Shown here piece after piece: positions 32,142 through 36,857 of a DNA stretch of 64,000 nt (position 1 is the first letter of the stretch; each line of letters opens with the position of its first letter). The notes below the pieces were generated by a model. That model was not told where the DNA came from. It ran no database searches and worked only from the letters and a program-made list of their open reading frames with translations. A program made the translations under genes and the position numbers. The stretch is from Candidatus Dormiibacterota bacterium (lineage in GTDB: Bacteria; Chloroflexota; Dormibacteria; Dormibacterales; Dormibacteraceae), in NCBI GenBank assembly GCA_024280995.1, contig JAMXLM010000009.1:1-64000 (forward strand), in the 5' to 3' direction.

Positions 32142-32226
32142 GGGCGGCTGGCGGAACTGGTAGACGCGCACGTTTGAGGGGCGTGTGGGGTAACCCATCC
32201 GGGTTCGAGTCCCGGGTCGCCCACCA
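32142..32226 (+). tRNA. tRNA-Leu (anticodon GAG), integration target
   Basis: An 85-nt class II tRNA with encoded CCA (32224-32226). The acceptor stem GGGCGGC pairs with GTCGCCC, and the anticodon loop TTGAGGG gives GAG for CUC/CUU codons. A TAGAAT box at 32122-32127 would start transcription about 7 bp before the tRNA. Its last 15 bases plus the next A (32212-32227) are repeated exactly at 34425-34440, the mark of integrase-mediated insertion into a tRNA gene. Confidence 0.95.
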
Positions 32227-32237
32227 AAGTTGACCCG

Positions 32238-32297
32238 ATTCCGCACTTTTCCGCCGTCTGATGCGGAATCCGAGCTGTTATTCCGCACTTTTCCGCC
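32238..32297. repeat. 18-bp direct repeat next to the tRNA (possible arm-type sites)
   Basis: ATTCCGCACTTTTCCGCC occurs at 32238-32255 and, identically, at 32280-32297, a period of 42 bp. TGCGGAAT between them is the inverse of the repeat start. Repeats of this kind just inside an attachment core are typical integrase arm-type binding sites of tyrosine-recombinase elements. There are only two copies, so it is not a CRISPR array. Confidence 0.7.
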
Positions 32298-32315
32298 ATA
32301 ACGTGCCGAATGTTC

Positions 32316-32343
32316 GGTTCGCGTCACGGAAACTACGGCCCAC
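32316..32343. repeat. 28-bp repeat, left copy
   Basis: GGTTCGCGTCACGGAAACTA plus CGGCCCAC matches 33718-33745 at 26 of 28 positions, in the same orientation. The two copies flank the lipoprotein gene 32463-33563 inside the tRNA-bounded segment. Confidence 0.65.
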
Positions 32344-32462
32344 TTTGACAGACACCTTCCACCCGATCATGTCCATGAGTCGCGACGTTGCAAGACTGCC
32401 GTCCGCTTTGCGGGCGGTCAGGTTTCCTGCACTCCGGTCTCTGGACGCCGGGCCGTCGACGC

Positions 32463-33563
32463 TTGGATAACTGGCGCAAGGCAGCCATCGTTTACGCAGC
32501 TGTGAGAGCTCTTGTGCTGGCCGTGCTGCTCGAGCTCACGGCCTGTGGGACGGCATCGACCGCGCCCCAGTCGCCCCCCTCGGCAAGCAGTATGTTGCCG
32601 ACTCAGGCAGCGAGCCCGTCCCGTAGTGTGCCGCCGTCTGGCGTGGTAGCCATGCCCAGTCCGCGACAGGGCGCGGCGTTCGCGTGGGACCCCAAGGACG
32701 GCTACCTATTGATGTTTGGGGGCAGCACGGGCGACCCCGATAGGGCCGTATTTGGTGACACCTGGGCATGGATCGGCTCTGAGTGGCTTCAGCTGCATCC
32801 CCAGACATCTCCTCCCGCGCGGGGCGAGGGCGCGCTGGGCTATGACCCAGAGAGTCAGAGAATGATCCTGTACGGCGGCGGCGATAACTTCTACCTCCAA
32901 GCCACGGACCCGCAGCGGAATGACACATGGGCGTGGGACGGCACGAACTGGACGGAGTTGCATCCGGCACATACACCAACCCCAGCGGTCTGCTGCAGCG
33001 AGGTCGAAATGGCGTACGACGAAGGCAAGCCGGGATTATGGCTCACGCTCGGCCTGCTGAAGACATGGGCGTGGACCGGGTCGGACTGGACTCTGATGGC
33101 ACCCGCAGCCCGTCCGCCGGAGCGCTTTCTCTTCGGCTTTGCCTACGACAGTGAGTTGCGAGGGACGATCGCAGTCTCCGGCTACGCGGGCGAAGGCACG
33201 GCGGCACCCGGGGAGGCGGCACCGTCTCACGACGACACGTGGCTCTGGACTTCGGGTCGGTGGGTCGAGCTCCGCCCCTTGGTCAATCCCGCAAGGGGGC
33301 CATGCGTGGCGGCCTTCGACAAAGCCCGCCGCGTATTGGTGCTCTTTTCGGCTGACGGCTCCACCTGGATATTTGACGGGACGACCTGGCTCAAGCAGCA
33401 CGCACTGCACTCTCCACCGTCCGGCCTGAGCGGCGACTCAATCGCGTATGACCCCGTCACAGGGTCGGTTGTCTTTTTTGGCGGGGCTGACAGTGTGCAA
33501 GCCCAGCCCTACTTCAACCAGACGTGGAGCTGGGACGGTTCAGACTGGTCCAGGCTGACCTAA
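32463..33563 (+). CDS. Kelch-like beta-propeller lipoprotein
   Basis: About 366 residues from a TTG at 32463; a GTG at 32502 is an alternative, and the frame is open from 32388. The N-terminus carries a short basic region and a hydrophobic stretch ending in the lipobox LTAC. After a Ser/Pro-rich tether come five to six propeller-blade repeats, each with a Gly-rich strand and a D-[TQ]-W-x-W pattern (FGDTWAWIGSEW, NDTWAWDGTNW, KTWAWTGSDW, DDTWLWTSGRW, NQTWSWDGSDW). Proteins of this type sit outside the membrane and bind ligands; the function is unknown. It lies inside the tRNA-bounded island and its G+C is lower than in neighbouring genes. Confidence 0.78.
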   Translation: MDNWRKAAIVYAAVRALVLAVLLELTACGTASTAPQSPPSASSMLPTQAASPSRSVPPSGVVAMPSPRQGAAFAWDPKDGYLLMFGGSTGDPDRAVFGDTWAWIGSEWLQLHPQTSPPARGEGALGYDPESQRMILYGGGDNFYLQATDPQRNDTWAWDGTNWTELHPAHTPTPAVCCSEVEMAYDEGKPGLWLTLGLLKTWAWTGSDWTLMAPAARPPERFLFGFAYDSELRGTIAVSGYAGEGTAAPGEAAPSHDDTWLWTSGRWVELRPLVNPARGPCVAAFDKARRVLVLFSADGSTWIFDGTTWLKQHALHSPPSGLSGDSIAYDPVTGSVVFFGGADSVQAQPYFNQTWSWDGSDWSRLT

Positions 33564-33717
33564 GCCGCTTCACGAGCGGCCGGGGCAACTTGCCTCTGTC
33601 ATTAGGTCGGCGCTATCGGGTCACGCTTGCCTCTGGGACGTGATATCGGGCGCCAGGTACCGCGTTAGATGCGGTAATAGCCCTTCAGGCTGAGGTGCCG
33701 ACCGAGCACCATCGGTA

Positions 33718-33745
33718 GGTTCGCGTTACGGAAACTACAGCCCAC
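33718..33745. repeat. 28-bp repeat, right copy, with inverted arm
   Basis: The second copy of the 28-bp sequence at 32316-32343. AGGTTCGCGT (33717-33726) also has an exact inverted copy, ACGCGAACCT, at 33770-33779, making a possible hairpin of about 63 bp. Apart from this element, the 259-bp gap 33564-33822 holds nothing that looks like a gene. Confidence 0.6.
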
Positions 33746-33822
33746 CATCAGATCGGCGAGCTTTCCATGACGCGAACCTCCCACCAACGGCAGCTCAGGC
33801 CGGTTGGTTAGGATTCCGCGCA

Positions 33823-34407
33823 ATGAGCCGCAGCTTGATGCTCTGGTCGTTGCTTGTCGGGTCTGCGATCGGTCTGACCGAGGCCATCGTGGAGACAGTT
33901 TCGCCAAGATGGGCTGAATCGGTCGGCGACCATTGGACCGGGCTGGTGGCGATGTCCCTGGTGGTCCTGGGTCTGTGGGTGGTATCTCACTCGTTCACCA
34001 GACCGACGCGCGGCATCCGGATCACGCTAGGAGTCGTCATCTTCTCCTACGCGATGATGGGCATCGTTCAGAACATCGCCGAGCTGATCGACTACGACGC
34101 CGTCGTAAACGGCAATGTCGGACTGATCTTCCTCGTCTTCAGCGTCGTCCTCGCCGTGTCGAGCATCGTCCTTGGCGTGAGAGCATGGCGCCAGGCCGCC
34201 TGGCCGCGTTGGACGAACGCGATCGTCGTGGCGTCGCCGCTCGGCGCCACCGTTCCCATCGCGCCACTGCTGCTCGCGGCGCACTTCCCGAATGAGCTCC
34301 TTCACGTGTTCTTCTTCGCCGGTCCGTTGGCCCTTGCTGTGGGCAACTGGGGATTGAGCCGTCAGCCGGCCTCGACGACGCCTGATCCTCTGCGCATTAC
34401 CGCGTGA
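33823..34407 (+). CDS. Hypothetical five- to six-span membrane protein
   Basis: A 194-residue membrane protein with hydrophobic segments near 5-20, 40-55, 66-85, 98-118, 136-152 and 160-175, and short loops. The N-terminus MSRSLMLWSLLVGSAIGL starts at an ATG with no strong SD. No family recognised. It lies inside the tRNA-Leu-bounded segment, ending 17 bp before the attR-like sequence. No partner gene is evident. Confidence 0.65.
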   Translation: MSRSLMLWSLLVGSAIGLTEAIVETVSPRWAESVGDHWTGLVAMSLVVLGLWVVSHSFTRPTRGIRITLGVVIFSYAMMGIVQNIAELIDYDAVVNGNVGLIFLVFSVVLAVSSIVLGVRAWRQAAWPRWTNAIVVASPLGATVPIAPLLLAAHFPNELLHVFFFAGPLALAVGNWGLSRQPASTTPDPLRITA

Positions 34408-34424
34408 CGGCTGCCTAAGCGAAT

Positions 34425-34440
34425 CCGGGTCGCCCACCAA
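34425..34440 (+). mobile_element. attR-like copy of the tRNA-Leu 3' end
   Basis: CCGGGTCGCCCACCAA is identical to 32212-32227, the 3' end of tRNA-Leu(GAG) including CCA and one following base. The bases before it (GCGAAT) resemble a tRNA T-loop but do not match this tRNA. The 2,197 bp between the two copies would be the inserted or residual element. No integrase gene lies between them. Confidence 0.75.
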
Positions 34441-34446
34441 GAAACG

Positions 34447-35115
34447 TCAACGGACTCGGTCGTTGAACGCGCGCACGACGATGAACGCACCCATGACCAC
34501 GACCATCGCCGCACCCGGGTAGTCGGCGAGGCGCTCCCAGACTCCTGACGGCAAGCCCGGAGCCTTGATCAGGAACATCGCCAGGCTGATCAGCCCGACG
34601 ACTCCGGCCACGGTGGCTCCGAGGCCGAGAGGCCTGACTCTCTCGAGCAGCACCGAGCCGAGCAACATCATGCTCACGTTCAGGCTGACGAGCCCGACGA
34701 GCGCCCCGAACCGATGCATGTCTGGGGCGACGTCCTCCGGAAACGTCCCCGCGAAGATCAAGCCCCATCCCGCCAGCGCAAGTAGGCTCAACCCGGCCCG
34801 ACTCCGAATCCCTCCCGGCCAGGCGCGCCACGTCGCTGCCGCGCCGGACCAGTGCAGGACGCCGACCACGATGAACGTCCCGTTCATCAAATCGTGCAGC
34901 GGCGAGCACAACGCGGCGCTGCAAGTCGTGTTGCCCAGATCGCTGATCAGGTTGGTTGTCAGGCTGAACGGCCGCACGGATGCGGCCTGGGCGATGCCCT
35001 GGACCACGAAGAAGACGACGGAAAGAGTCCACGCGGCACCCCCAAACACGACGGCGGGCGCGAGAGTTGTCGGGAACGCTTCGCCCATGGCGGGACGGGA
35101 GGCTGGGCTCATCAA
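34447..35115 (-). CDS. DUF998 family membrane protein
   Basis: A 222-residue protein with six membrane spans. The DUF998 signature loop is clear: SLTTNLISDLGNTTC followed by CSPLHDLMNGTFIVVG, and later a GTFPEDVAPDMHRFGALVGL loop. The family's role is not established. It lies just outside the island boundary and is divergent from the methyltransferase gene, with 30 bp between starts. Confidence 0.82.
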   Translation of the reverse strand: MMSPASRPAMGEAFPTTLAPAVVFGGAAWTLSVVFFVVQGIAQAASVRPFSLTTNLISDLGNTTCSAALCSPLHDLMNGTFIVVGVLHWSGAAATWRAWPGGIRSRAGLSLLALAGWGLIFAGTFPEDVAPDMHRFGALVGLVSLNVSMMLLGSVLLERVRPLGLGATVAGVVGLISLAMFLIKAPGLPSGVWERLADYPGAAMVVVMGAFIVVRAFNDRVR

Positions 35116-35145
35116 CCTCGGGAGTTATACAGTCCGCACAGCACG

Positions 35146-36000
35146 ATGACCGCAGTCGCCCGGGGACCGAGTCGCACCGCGGTGCTGACGGCAGCGGCGA
35201 GGGCGCTGCACCGAGAGGAACCGCCGCCCTGGGTGCTCGACGATCCGCTCGCGATCGGGCTGGCCGGCGACGAGGGCCTCGCGCTGATGCAGCGGATGCG
35301 CACCGAGCTGTCGCGTGAGTCGCTGCTCGACTTCACCCGCTGGGTCTGCACGCGAGGCCGTTATGTCGAGGACCTGGTCGAAGAGGAAGCTGCGCGGGGG
35401 ATTGATCAGTACGCCATCCTGGGCGCGGGCCTGGACTCCTTCGCGTATCGCCATGGCAATCTGCTCGAACGGCTTCGAGTTTTCGAGGTCGATCAACATG
35501 AGTCGCAGGCATGGAAGCGCCGGCGTCTCGCCGAGATCGGTGTTGCCGCGCCTCCAAACCTGACGTTCGCGCCGGTCGACTTCGAGACGGAGACCCTCGA
35601 GGACGGCCTCGCGGCGGCTGGTTTCGACTGGTCGGCTCCCGCAACGTTCTCGTGGATCGGGGTGACGATGTATCTCACGCGGGGAGCCATCGACGCCACC
35701 TTGTCCGCAATCGTGAAAGGCGCGCCGCGGAGCTCGCTGGTGCTCACCTACAACCTGCCGATGTCTGAGCTCAGCGGCCTGGCCGCCGAGACGAGCGGCG
35801 CGATGCGCGCCATCGCGGCGGAGATGGGCGAGCCATTCGTGAGCCTCTTCCTTCCGGATGAAATCGAAGCGCTCCTGCGGAGCCACGGATACTCCGACAT
35901 CATCCATTTCTCCCCCGAGGAGGCTTTGCGGCGGTACTTCCCTGACCGAAGCGATGTCCAGCTCGGAGGAGCGCAGCGGATCGTGGTCGGGCGCGTCTGA
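35146..36000 (+). CDS. SAM-dependent methyltransferase, PPM1/LCMT-like family
   Basis: A 284-residue class I methyltransferase of the leucine-carboxyl-methyltransferase-like family common in actinobacteria (TIGR00027 type). Features are the N-terminal SRTAVLTAAARALH stretch, the SAM-binding YAILGAGLDSFAYR motif, the acidic VFEVDQ loop, and FSWIGVTMYLTRGAIDATL. Family members methylate diverse small molecules and the substrate is unknown. The ATG at 35146 gives the usual N-terminus. The following sigma factor gene starts 40 bp downstream. Confidence 0.9.
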   Translation: MTAVARGPSRTAVLTAAARALHREEPPPWVLDDPLAIGLAGDEGLALMQRMRTELSRESLLDFTRWVCTRGRYVEDLVEEEAARGIDQYAILGAGLDSFAYRHGNLLERLRVFEVDQHESQAWKRRRLAEIGVAAPPNLTFAPVDFETETLEDGLAAAGFDWSAPATFSWIGVTMYLTRGAIDATLSAIVKGAPRSSLVLTYNLPMSELSGLAAETSGAMRAIAAEMGEPFVSLFLPDEIEALLRSHGYSDIIHFSPEEALRRYFPDRSDVQLGGAQRIVVGRV

Positions 36001-36040: not shown

Positions 36041-36592
36041 GTGACCGAGGGCGGTCAGCTCGATCCCAAGACCCAGTTTCGGCAGCTGTACGACCAGGAG
36101 TACAACTCCGTCTACCGCGCGATCCGCGCGGTGATCCTGGACACGGCCGCGGCCGAAGACCTCACGCAGGAGACGTTCGTGCGTGCATACCGCGCGCGCA
36201 ATCGATACACCCCGACGGCGCCGCCCGGCGCCTGGCTGCGCCGGATCGGCGTCAACCTGGCCATCTCCCATCTACGCCGCCAGAAGCTCGCCCGCTTCTT
36301 GCCCGCCAGGCTGTACGTCGCGCCGGACCGCCGCGACTACGACCGCGCGGAAGCCCGTGACGTCGTCGAGAAGGCCCTCCTGACCCTTAGCCCCAAGCTC
36401 CGCGCCGCCATCGTCCTTCATTACTACGAGGGATTGACCCGCGAGGAGATCGCCGACGTGCTCAGCGTTCCGGCCGGGACGGTGGCCTCGAGGATCGCCA
36501 AGGCGGTGGCGATCATGAGAAAAGCGATGGGGAGCGATCAGCAGGGCGAGACCGAGCGTTCGAGAAGTGAAGGTGCCCTACGTGGAAGATAA
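36041..36592 (+). CDS. ECF-type RNA polymerase sigma factor
   Basis: A 183-residue sigma-70-family factor. Region 2 spans about residues 12-80 (FRQLYDQEYNSVYRAIRAVI, then AAEDLTQETFVRAYR), and region 4 about 110-165 (LSPKLRAAIVLHYYEGLTREEIADVL, VPAGTVASRIAKA helix-turn-helix). The GTG at 36041 is chosen; a GTG at 36014 is possible. The downstream gene overlaps by 26 bp and encodes a small one-span protein, the usual place for an anti-sigma factor. Confidence 0.9.
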   Translation: MTEGGQLDPKTQFRQLYDQEYNSVYRAIRAVILDTAAAEDLTQETFVRAYRARNRYTPTAPPGAWLRRIGVNLAISHLRRQKLARFLPARLYVAPDRRDYDRAEARDVVEKALLTLSPKLRAAIVLHYYEGLTREEIADVLSVPAGTVASRIAKAVAIMRKAMGSDQQGETERSRSEGALRGR

Positions 36593-36857
36593 AACCACTC
36601 GGGGAGGGCAAGCCGCGCCCTCCGAAGCAGAGGTCAGCCGGATGGTCCGGGCAGAGGTCGATACCTGGAAACCCCGGCGCGGCCCGGACTGGGCGGACAT
36701 GATGATCCGTCTTGCCGCCTCCGGGCCATCGCCGTGGGTGGTCTACACGACCGCAAGCGCAGCCCTCGTCGTGATCCTCGTCACGGCCTTCATTCTTGGC
36801 TCGTGGCTGCAGATCGGGGCGCTGGCCCCGCAGCCCTCGAGCTTCACCGGCCACTAG
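36567..36857 (+). CDS. Small one-span membrane protein, putative anti-sigma partner
   Basis: A 96-residue protein from a GTG overlapping the sigma gene. A polar N-terminal half (about 1-52) precedes one membrane span (VVYTTASAALVVILVTAFILGSW) and a short outer tail. The layout, cytoplasmic helix plus one span encoded directly after an ECF sigma gene, is that of an anti-sigma factor, but it is shorter than most and has no zinc-binding HxxxCxxC motif. The assignment rests on position. Confidence 0.6.
   Translation: MKVPYVEDKTTRGGQAAPSEAEVSRMVRAEVDTWKPRRGPDWADMMIRLAASGPSPWVVYTTASAALVVILVTAFILGSWLQIGALAPQPSSFTGH

Follow-up and report, generated by a model that had tools for sequence, protein, structure and literature searches.

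Introduction

Integrons are the textbook case of gene-cassette stockpiling in bacteria. The tandem ssrA islands of Dehalococcoides, a genus of the same phylum as the bacterium treated here, are a closer parallel. According to the sections of PMC3146451 that describe them, these islands are bounded by copies of the 3' end of the RNA gene, and beside each repeat stands a motif that does not align with that gene. The 3' end of dsiB, the gene for a large serine recombinase, overlaps attL, its stop codon lying beyond the island, and the islands are counted as 16 with the module and 15 without it. The same sections quote cis-mobilizable elements (CIMEs), att sites without a recombinase that are moved with or by their neighbors. 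Tycheposons, as defined in the relevant part of PMC10872708, are cargo elements of 4 to 200 kb with a tRNA and a xerD-like tyrosine recombinase. Here we compare with these systems a segment that follows a tRNA-Leu(GAG) gene in a 64,000-nucleotide stretch of DNA (the window; positions 1 to 64,000 of contig JAMXLM010000009.1, assembly GCA_024280995.1) from Candidatus Dormiibacterota bacterium, an uncultured member of the Chloroflexota family Dormibacteraceae.

The genome that contains the window (G000; G, C, and L numbers are our labels for genomes, contigs, and loci) is a 3.0-Mb assembly of 46 contigs that is 94% complete. An earlier note, written from the letters of the window, had described the segment as a decayed island of the kind left by a tyrosine integrase, 2.2 kb long and delimited by a 16-bp repeat of the tRNA end. 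The repeat is confirmed, and that first interpretation is partly supported. Judging from comparison of DNA sequences, we consider it highly probable that the segment is a short, partly decayed array of small cassettes that entered the 3' end of tRNA-Leu(GAG) by site-specific recombination of the serine-recombinase type.

Results

A recurrent attachment half-site behind tRNA-Leu(GAG)

The attachment gene, tRNA-Leu(GAG), was called by ARAGORN at 32142..32226 (+) and has the 3' end GGTCGCCCACCA; Rfam did not list a tRNA-Leu(GAG) at these positions. It is preceded by tRNA-Arg(TCG). Because 17 of the 22 other family genomes searched contain a match of 92-100%, the gene is not degenerate. The 16-mer CCGGGTCGCCCACCAA occurs exactly both within the tRNA at 32212..32227 (+) and, as a displaced tRNA-Leu 3' end, at 34425..34440 (+). 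A first-order Markov model of the window predicts 1.3e-5 chance copies per 10 kb on both strands, so the recurrence is far beyond chance, and an att-type repeat at this tRNA is supported. The 3' ends of the other three tRNAs of the window do not recur within it. A tRNA 3' end copied at the far side of a segment, here 16 bp at 34425, is also what a tRNA island made by a tyrosine integrase shows. Two further observations of the earlier note hold as well: the G+C content of 32228-34440 lies below that of the flanks, if modestly (63.4% versus 66.7% and 68.3%, with 6% of equal-sized windows lower still), and neither the open reading frame (ORF) list nor Pfam reveals a recombinase among the proteins of the segment. 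The "several repeats" it mentioned belong mainly to two families, a dispersed intergenic repeat (32238-32311) and attachment half-sites (32316 and 33718/33762), which explain the island better than the 16-mer does.

The half-site, here called the R end, is GGTTCGCGTTACGGAAACTACGGCCCACCA; the sequence GGTTCGCGTYACGGAAACTACRGCCCAC is found at both 32316 and 33718. Its layout is a 17-bp arm, CTAC, and the core GGCCCACCA. R end 1, recognized by the half-site pattern, spans 32316..32343 (+), with its arm at 32316-32332 and the core GGCCCAC at 32337-32343, while R end 2 spans 33718..33747 (+), with its arm at 33718-33734 and the core AGCCCACCA at 33739-33747. Some cassettes, but not all, also carry an inverted arm just inside the core, the L arm. 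In the window, the inverted partner of R end 2 lies at 33762..33778 (-), and the two together make a full attP-like site.

We collected 80 R ends in a first set and 85 distinct ones in a second. Excluding from the alignment counts those with fewer than 90 bases upstream or 60 downstream, conservation amounted to about 1-2 bits per position over GGTTCGCGTTACGGAAACTACGGCCCAC, was weaker at the last CA, and was absent directly after it. RNAalifold found no conserved fold in the R ends. Among 36 L arms, the spacing to GCCCAC was 15 nt in 19 and 5 nt in 7. A literature search, with subscription papers mostly outside its scope, returned no description of this half-site or of the arrays it marks.

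Within its own genome, the arm was found outside the window once in contig C15. All other copies lie together in contig C37, on ~10 kb downstream of tRNA-Ile(GAT) that hold five R ends, four L arms (two of them degenerate), and three copies of the tRNA-Ile 3' half. At the C15 place (36545-36609; L021), a tRNA-Ile 3' end and an L arm stand beside a tRNA-Asn gene, far from the tRNA-Ile gene, perhaps as a landing at another place. Across the family, the arm motif was present in 22 of 37 genomes at 80 places (reversed control, 2 places). Outside the family it was present in 2 of 24 genomes at 2 places (reversed control, 2 places). The R core (28 nt, at most 2 mismatches) was found in 14 of 23 sampled family genomes and in 1 of 377 other genomes of the phylum, with no match for the control. 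A search for the full two-arm site in 84,980 species genomes returned four contigs, all labelled as Chloroflexi metagenome-assembled genomes, in which the full R and L site is symmetric and 53-60 bp long. Three matches from outside the family were kept in the counts. The one in G054 is a true R end, and its cassette is 90.6% like that of G017, by transfer or contamination. In G094 an R end lies on a 4.9-kb contig whose tRNA-Leu(GAG) is identical to that of the window over 83 nt, which is likely contamination. The match in G042 looks like chance.

Empty and filled sites in relatives

We compared 13 stretches, the window and 12 relatives, that contain both tRNA-Leu(GAG) and a gene for an extracytoplasmic function (ECF) sigma factor. 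The distance between the two, taken from tblastn edges and good to about 30 bp, was short in G022 (~65 bp), G015 (75 bp), G005 (130 bp), and G010 (150 bp) and intermediate in G003 (600 bp). It was long in G018 (2.3 kb), G001 (2.5 kb), G017 (3.0 kb), the window (3.8 kb), and G004 (4.0 kb) and longest in G019 (8.6 kb), G020 (11.4 kb, from a weak ECF match of 60% identity), and G014 (12.5 kb). The empty sites and larger insertions that the earlier note suggested looking for thus both exist, the former with the sigma factor gene within about 150 bp of the tRNA in 4 of the 12 relatives and the latter reaching 12.5 kb, and they support an insertion hotspot at tRNA-Leu(GAG). The step from tRNA-Leu(GAG) to the ECF sigma factor is probably the old neighborhood, and the DNA between them added. 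Since the empty relatives run from the tRNA straight to the sigma factor gene (36041 in the window), the added stretch reaches about 36000, past the second 16-mer and the 2.2 kb originally assigned to the island. No clear half-site was seen in the larger inserts of G004, G019, and G020, so the content of the hotspot is not all of the half-site kind. Variable cassettes at a tRNA gene, repeats of the tRNA end, and empty sites in relatives are the features by which additive flexible genomic islands are recognized, and this locus has all three.

Arrays of small cassettes and their exchange between genera

Arrays start at tRNA-Ile(GAT), at tRNA-Leu(GAG), and once at tRNA-Val(TAC), and all of these array-bearing genes end in GCCCACCA. 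Among the tRNA genes on the fetched stretches, only these and one tRNA-Tyr have GCCCAC at the 3' end; tRNA-Arg, tRNA-Trp, tRNA-Leu(CAG), and others there do not. Thirty-eight array contigs hold 72 R ends, 50 tRNA-Ile ends (genes included), and 4 tRNA-Pro halves. On these chosen contigs, two of which overlap by 0.9 kb, we measured 86 intervals between neighboring junctions on one strand and no more than 6 kb apart. Their median length was 1.03 kb; 48 contained one predicted gene, 32 none (by a strict gene caller), and 6 two or more, and 41 of 63 genes were oriented away from the core. Units of ~1 kb without a recombinase fall outside the definition of a tycheposon. When 29 array proteins were scanned against Pfam, 10 had no match at an E value of 0.01. 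The others included TetR, cupin, Fic, P450, glycoside hydrolase, methyltransferase, SUKH, adenylate cyclase, antitoxin, and MFS proteins, an IS21 pair, and an integrase.

Individual arrays contain further elements. One behind tRNA-Ile(GAT) in G010:C99 (L060, L158) extends over ~24 kb and comprises seven R ends, two L arms, and, counting the gene itself, nine tRNA 3' ends, some of these sites being degenerate. A cassette-array contig of G003 matches a group II intron (D1-D4-6) at L065:1321-1532, and an IS21-type transposase pair lies within the G019:C33 array (L054:7418-9627).

The same cassette can be found in more than one species or genus and behind different junctions. One lies behind an R end in G010 and behind a tRNA-Ile 3' half in G003; a second lies behind an R end in G010 and behind a tRNA-Leu copy in G009; and a third follows tRNA-Leu(GAG) in G016, a tRNA-Ile-like end in G018, and the tRNA-Ile(GAT) gene in G031. 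A P450 cassette is closed by the same variant R end in G010 and G003, with different DNA beyond. We inspected 10 cassettes, picked by eye, in 11 comparisons. In 8 of the 10, at least one edge of homology fell at the core (within about 8 nt), bordering a tRNA-Ile end, a tRNA-Leu end, or another R end, and homology between shared cassettes often ended at GGCCCAC. Cassette identity was mostly 88-95% where core genes were 79-84% identical. The values were 94.6% versus 80.1% (ECF gene only) for G016 and G018, 90.2% versus 79.5-80.1% for G017 and G009, 91.1% versus 78.6% (ECF gene only) for G003 and G018, 90.3 and 94.5% versus 82.5-82.8% for G010 and G003, 88.9 and 93.5% versus 84.0-84.4% for G010 and G009, and 92.0% versus 82.7-84.5% for G010 and G008. 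The smallest excess, 85.5% versus 82.3% (ECF gene only), was that of G017 and G014.

A candidate large serine recombinase

Two related recombinase genes, with open frames of 523 codons (G026:C1) and 541 codons (G026:C29), encode PF00239, PF07508, and PF13408 (Resolvase, Recombinase, and Zn-ribbon) in proteins that are 93.5% identical. Each gene is flanked by an L arm and an R end, which are separated by about 4.4 kb. The L arm forms part of the 3' end of the gene, whose frame continues across the core and into a tRNA-Ile 3' half read in antisense. Next to the genes, 2.8 kb align between the two copies at 97.4% and 87.4%; in L167, this DNA yielded only low-scoring short ORFs. Overlap of the 3' end of the recombinase gene with the att site was seen in four contigs from three sources (L167, L168, L055, and L174). 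An interrupted copy stands at an L arm in G019:C2, C-terminal remnants stand at L arms in G019:C33 and G010:C99, and contig C15 of the window's own genome has a 34-residue match consisting mostly of arm and tRNA sequence. In L174, an IMG/VR contig, a relative of 79% identity that is not open throughout is accompanied by an L arm joined to a tRNA-Leu(GAG) that is 97.6% identical to that of the window and, like it, is preceded by tRNA-Arg(TCG). Scanned for serine recombinases with a crude motif, the fetched stretches yielded a single match, in a G019 array contig, to which the G026 genes are related. The best NCBIfam models for the recombinase were CcrB (165-172 bits) and CcrC (150-152 bits), each with a cut-off of 900 bits.

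From the position of these genes, the mover is likely a large serine recombinase rather than a tyrosine integrase, encoded by the element itself in G026 and not by the window cassettes. The suggestion in the earlier note that a recombinase elsewhere had moved the element is borne out to this extent, with large serine recombinase genes at L arms in relatives. A virus as carrier was rejected, as the R-core and L-core patterns had no match in viral contigs; the recombinase itself had two matches there, one being the tRNA locus of L174 and the other 42% identical and without arms.

The R ends appear to be related to this gene. For codon statistics, the 85 R ends were reduced to 75 with less than 60% identity upstream. 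On the reverse strand, these share a frame in which stops make up 0.7% per codon over the 11 codons after the arm, compared with 1.3-7.9% in the other five frames, and in which a stop follows within the next nine codons in 48% of cases, compared with 20-23% in the two other reverse frames. Information at codon positions 1, 2, and 3 was 0.43, 0.33, and 0.16 bits including the codon that starts in the arm and 0.29, 0.29, and 0.17 bits without it, compared with 0.04-0.07 bits further in. The frame reads VGRSFRNANQ..TV.G..ISL, and at GTG-GGC it is the frame in which the G026 gene crosses the core. By these measures, the R ends look as if they carry the C-terminal tail of the recombinase, conserved codon by codon. 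Since the R-end frame continues that of the recombinase, the R end of a circle would supply the C-terminus of the enzyme; upon integration, residues read from the tRNA antisense (VGRGGLEPPTSA) would replace this tail. That a conserved tail frame also persists in the R ends of cassettes lacking the gene suggests descent from, or continuing recombination with, autonomous copies. We also considered the R end as a mimic of the tRNA-Ile 3' half, with which it shares CTGAT, GGTTCG, and GGCCCACCA, and rejected this because coding for the I-S-L of the tail fits better. GAT is enriched (74% versus 28%), but the position of the block differs by multiples of three in 32 of 35.

Proposed mechanism and alternative explanations

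The half-sites, the arrays, the shared cassettes with edges at the core, the empty sites, the recombinase gene running through an L arm beside a tRNA end, and the R-end frame, all of them seen in the sequence, are best accounted for as follows. In a cassette freed as a circle, the R and L ends would join into an attP-like site, symmetric and 50-60 bp long. This would be the substrate of a large serine recombinase supplied in trans, whose gene only autonomous relatives carry. The enzyme would recombine the site with GCCCACC where tRNA-Leu(GAG), tRNA-Ile(GAT), or tRNA-Val(TAC) ends or with the core of another cassette. The exact crossover would be expected within GGCCCACC, and arrays would grow outward from the tRNA.

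Several observations weigh against this scheme. The genome of the window has no PF00239 match, so that the enzyme is not on hand in this 94% complete assembly and the window cassettes look non-autonomous and partly decayed. On the fetched stretches, open recombinase genes come from one genome only, and no PF00239 search was made across the relatives. Long L arms (the 19 of 36 with 15-nt spacing) have a frame that differs from that of the short L arm of the recombinase. Two of the inspected cassettes (c2 and c3) show no edge of homology at the core, and numerous further edges lie within cassettes. None of the window cassettes is among the shared pairs listed, and the left one is reduced to a stub. 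Finally, many array junctions are tRNA-Ile 3' halves (~41 bp) or tRNA-Pro halves (~45 bp), in some arrays as frequent as R ends; crossover at the core does not explain them, and a tyrosine integrase of the phrog_1 type goes with the tRNA-Pro halves. Two systems may share landing sites.

The tRNA-Pro-like 45-bp 3' ends occur up to four per contig in G003:C13 (L066), G007:C22 and C50 (L068 and L070), G009:C361 (L127), and G022:C12 (L154). On three of these contigs there is a phrog_1-type tyrosine integrase or its remnants, a second array system that shares contigs with R ends.

The strongest competing explanation, which we nevertheless regard as improbable, is that the array was built by a tyrosine integrase, the kind of enzyme named in the earlier note. 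This would be a host XerC-like protein or the integrase of an element at tRNA genes, with the half-sites as its arm or core sites. Transfer RNA 3' ends are the classic targets of such enzymes, the ~41-bp tRNA-Ile halves recur many times in the arrays, and contig G022:C12 combines a phrog_1 integrase with an Ile half, a degenerate arm, and a Pro half. Remnants of this type lie beside Pro halves in G009:C361 and G007:C22, an integrase remnant in G018:C196 is ~3 kb from an Ile half, and an XerC-like gene is the sole PF00589 gene of the window's genome. We searched for PF00589 in that genome, in 61 genomes (matches listed), and in 20 array genomes, reading the surroundings of 30 of the 58 places found in the last. 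Only 1 of the 58 is on a contig with an exact arm, the contigs being short, and the gene that overlaps the L arm in the four contigs from three sources encodes a serine recombinase; the claim that a tyrosine integrase made the island is therefore not upheld. An integrase acting in cis was rejected, since the lone contig with both PF00589 and an exact arm is that of the G009:C361 remnant, which goes with tRNA-Pro copies. Relatives in which no arms were seen also possess an XerC-like PF00589 gene. This looks like a core gene because, among the matches listed, 7 of 8 relatives are 83-91% identical to the window's own XerC-like protein (the eighth is 70.7% identical over a longer stop-to-stop frame), and host XerC as the mover was set aside for want of positive evidence for such a role.

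Far less probable is an integron cassette array without an integrase (a cluster of attC sites lacking integron integrases, or CALIN), in which the R and L sites would be attC sites moved by IntI. Cassettes of ~1 kb, one site per cassette, and inverted-repeat full sites resemble such arrays. The attC consensus, RYYYAAC...GTTRRRY, was however absent from all 84 R-end contexts, the R ends lack a conserved fold, and the arrays are anchored at tRNA genes; the only PF00589 gene of the genome scores 81 bits against TIGR02249 (cut-off, 265), so that the genome has no integron integrase. That the half-site is just a dispersed repeat or miniature transposable element found near tRNA genes by chance is equally hard to credit, for although it is short, repeated, and built of inverted arms, with another dispersed repeat (32238-32311) directly beside it, shared homology starts or stops at the core in those 8 of 10 cassettes, neighbors swap between tRNA ends and R ends, and arms overlap the end of the recombinase gene.

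The window read as cassettes

With cassettes captured by a serine recombinase as the preferred explanation, we read the window, in order, as tRNA-Leu(GAG), a stub, cassette 1, cassette 2, a segment with DUF998 and methyltransferase genes, and the ECF sigma factor gene. The 16-mer is then one junction of several. To the left of R end 1, the cassette is reduced to a repeat stub, and the left part of R end 1, with its tail, is interrupted by the dispersed intergenic repeat, whose twin copies, 42 bp apart, occupy 32238..32311 (+). This stub (32228-32343) does look decayed, as the earlier note had it, but "decayed island" is too narrow a description of a locus that is a short example of a widespread cassette-array system.

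Cassette 1 (32344..33747, +) is delimited by the half-sites, beginning at the core of R end 1 and closing with that of R end 2. Its cargo is a Kelch-type beta-propeller lipoprotein gene at 32502..33563 (+; Pfam Kelch models below cut-off, E 6e-11), with a GTG start and the lipobox LTAC, both read by eye. A homologue is found in G007:C50, which also has an R end on the contig. Cassette 2 (33748..34440, +), which starts at the full site, is opened by the L arm, and is closed by the copied tRNA-Leu 3' end, carries a 194-amino-acid protein at 33823..34407 (+) that appears membrane-like by eye and has no Pfam match. The region 34441..36000 is an older inserted segment, absent from the empty sites of relatives. 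Pfam identifies in it a DUF998 gene (34447-35115, -) and an LCM-type methyltransferase gene (35146-36000, +), the latter also present in G016 and G009 and as a remnant in G001. The ECF sigma factor gene (36041..36592, +; Pfam) is the first conserved chromosomal gene on the right.

The dispersed intergenic repeat, ATTCCGCACTTTTCCGCC...GCGGAAT, often consists of two units ~42 bp apart and is often able to form a hairpin. Its pattern occurs at 17 places in the genome (control, 0), and copies lie behind genes and a tRNA-Met in contigs C1, C5, C12, C18, C20, C33, C43, and C45. It may be a terminator or a REP-like element. A similar pair stands behind tRNA-Leu in the empty site of G005.

Discussion

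An uncultured Chloroflexota family appears to stockpile cassettes by means of another class of enzyme, using tRNA genes as landing sites. We put forward tentatively, at somewhat short of even odds, the broader idea that this is a serine-recombinase counterpart of the integron, in which a recombinase produced elsewhere serially captures short cassettes with one half-site each at tRNA 3' ends (the tRNA serving as attI), in which these cassettes are exchanged among genera, and in which the recombinase tail is rewritten at each move as a possible switch between integration and excision. If true, a change in the end residues of the recombinase upon integration would bear on how serine recombinases control direction. 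About 85 attachment half-sites are now available together with a candidate enzyme and both empty and occupied sites, so that the growth of "additive" tRNA islands that lack their own integrase can be tested with a simple plasmid assay.

Among known systems, SCC elements with their Ccr recombinases supply the closest NCBIfam models for the enzyme, at scores far below the cut-offs, and the target and cargo of SCC differ. In CIMEs, as quoted in PMC3146451, att sites likewise lack a recombinase; here, most units of the arrays we read are of that type, and single units are common to several genera. Additive flexible islands and tRNA-direct-repeat islands share with these arrays cassettes at tRNA genes, copies of the tRNA end, and exchange between genera (PMC7771536, PMC10872708, PMC5217437), but the parts of those papers that describe them leave the enzyme and the site undefined, whereas here there are a dedicated half-site and a candidate enzyme.

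Integrons and CALINs, as characterized in the pertinent sections of PMC8618304 and PMC11389934, resemble the arrays in their mode of operation, having one recombination site per cassette, serial capture, and enzyme-less arrays. They use a tyrosine recombinase and a folded attC, whereas the candidate here is a serine recombinase and the site is symmetric without a conserved fold. The role of attI falls to a tRNA 3' end, and no attC consensus is present.

The closest known systems are the Dehalococcoides ssrA islands with DsiB/DsiA, likened here by their description in part of PMC3146451. Both have copies of an RNA-gene 3' end, an extra motif, a large serine recombinase gene whose 3' end overlaps an att site, and many elements without a recombinase. 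The Dehalococcoides islands target tmRNA and carry reductive dehalogenase cargo, whereas the targets here are tRNAs, and several of them. Unlike in the DsiB islands, junctions here are ~1 kb apart, and half-sites far outnumber recombinase genes on the fetched stretches. Our verdict is that the arrays are probably serine-recombinase islands at an RNA gene that have shrunk to integron-like cassettes at several tRNA genes.

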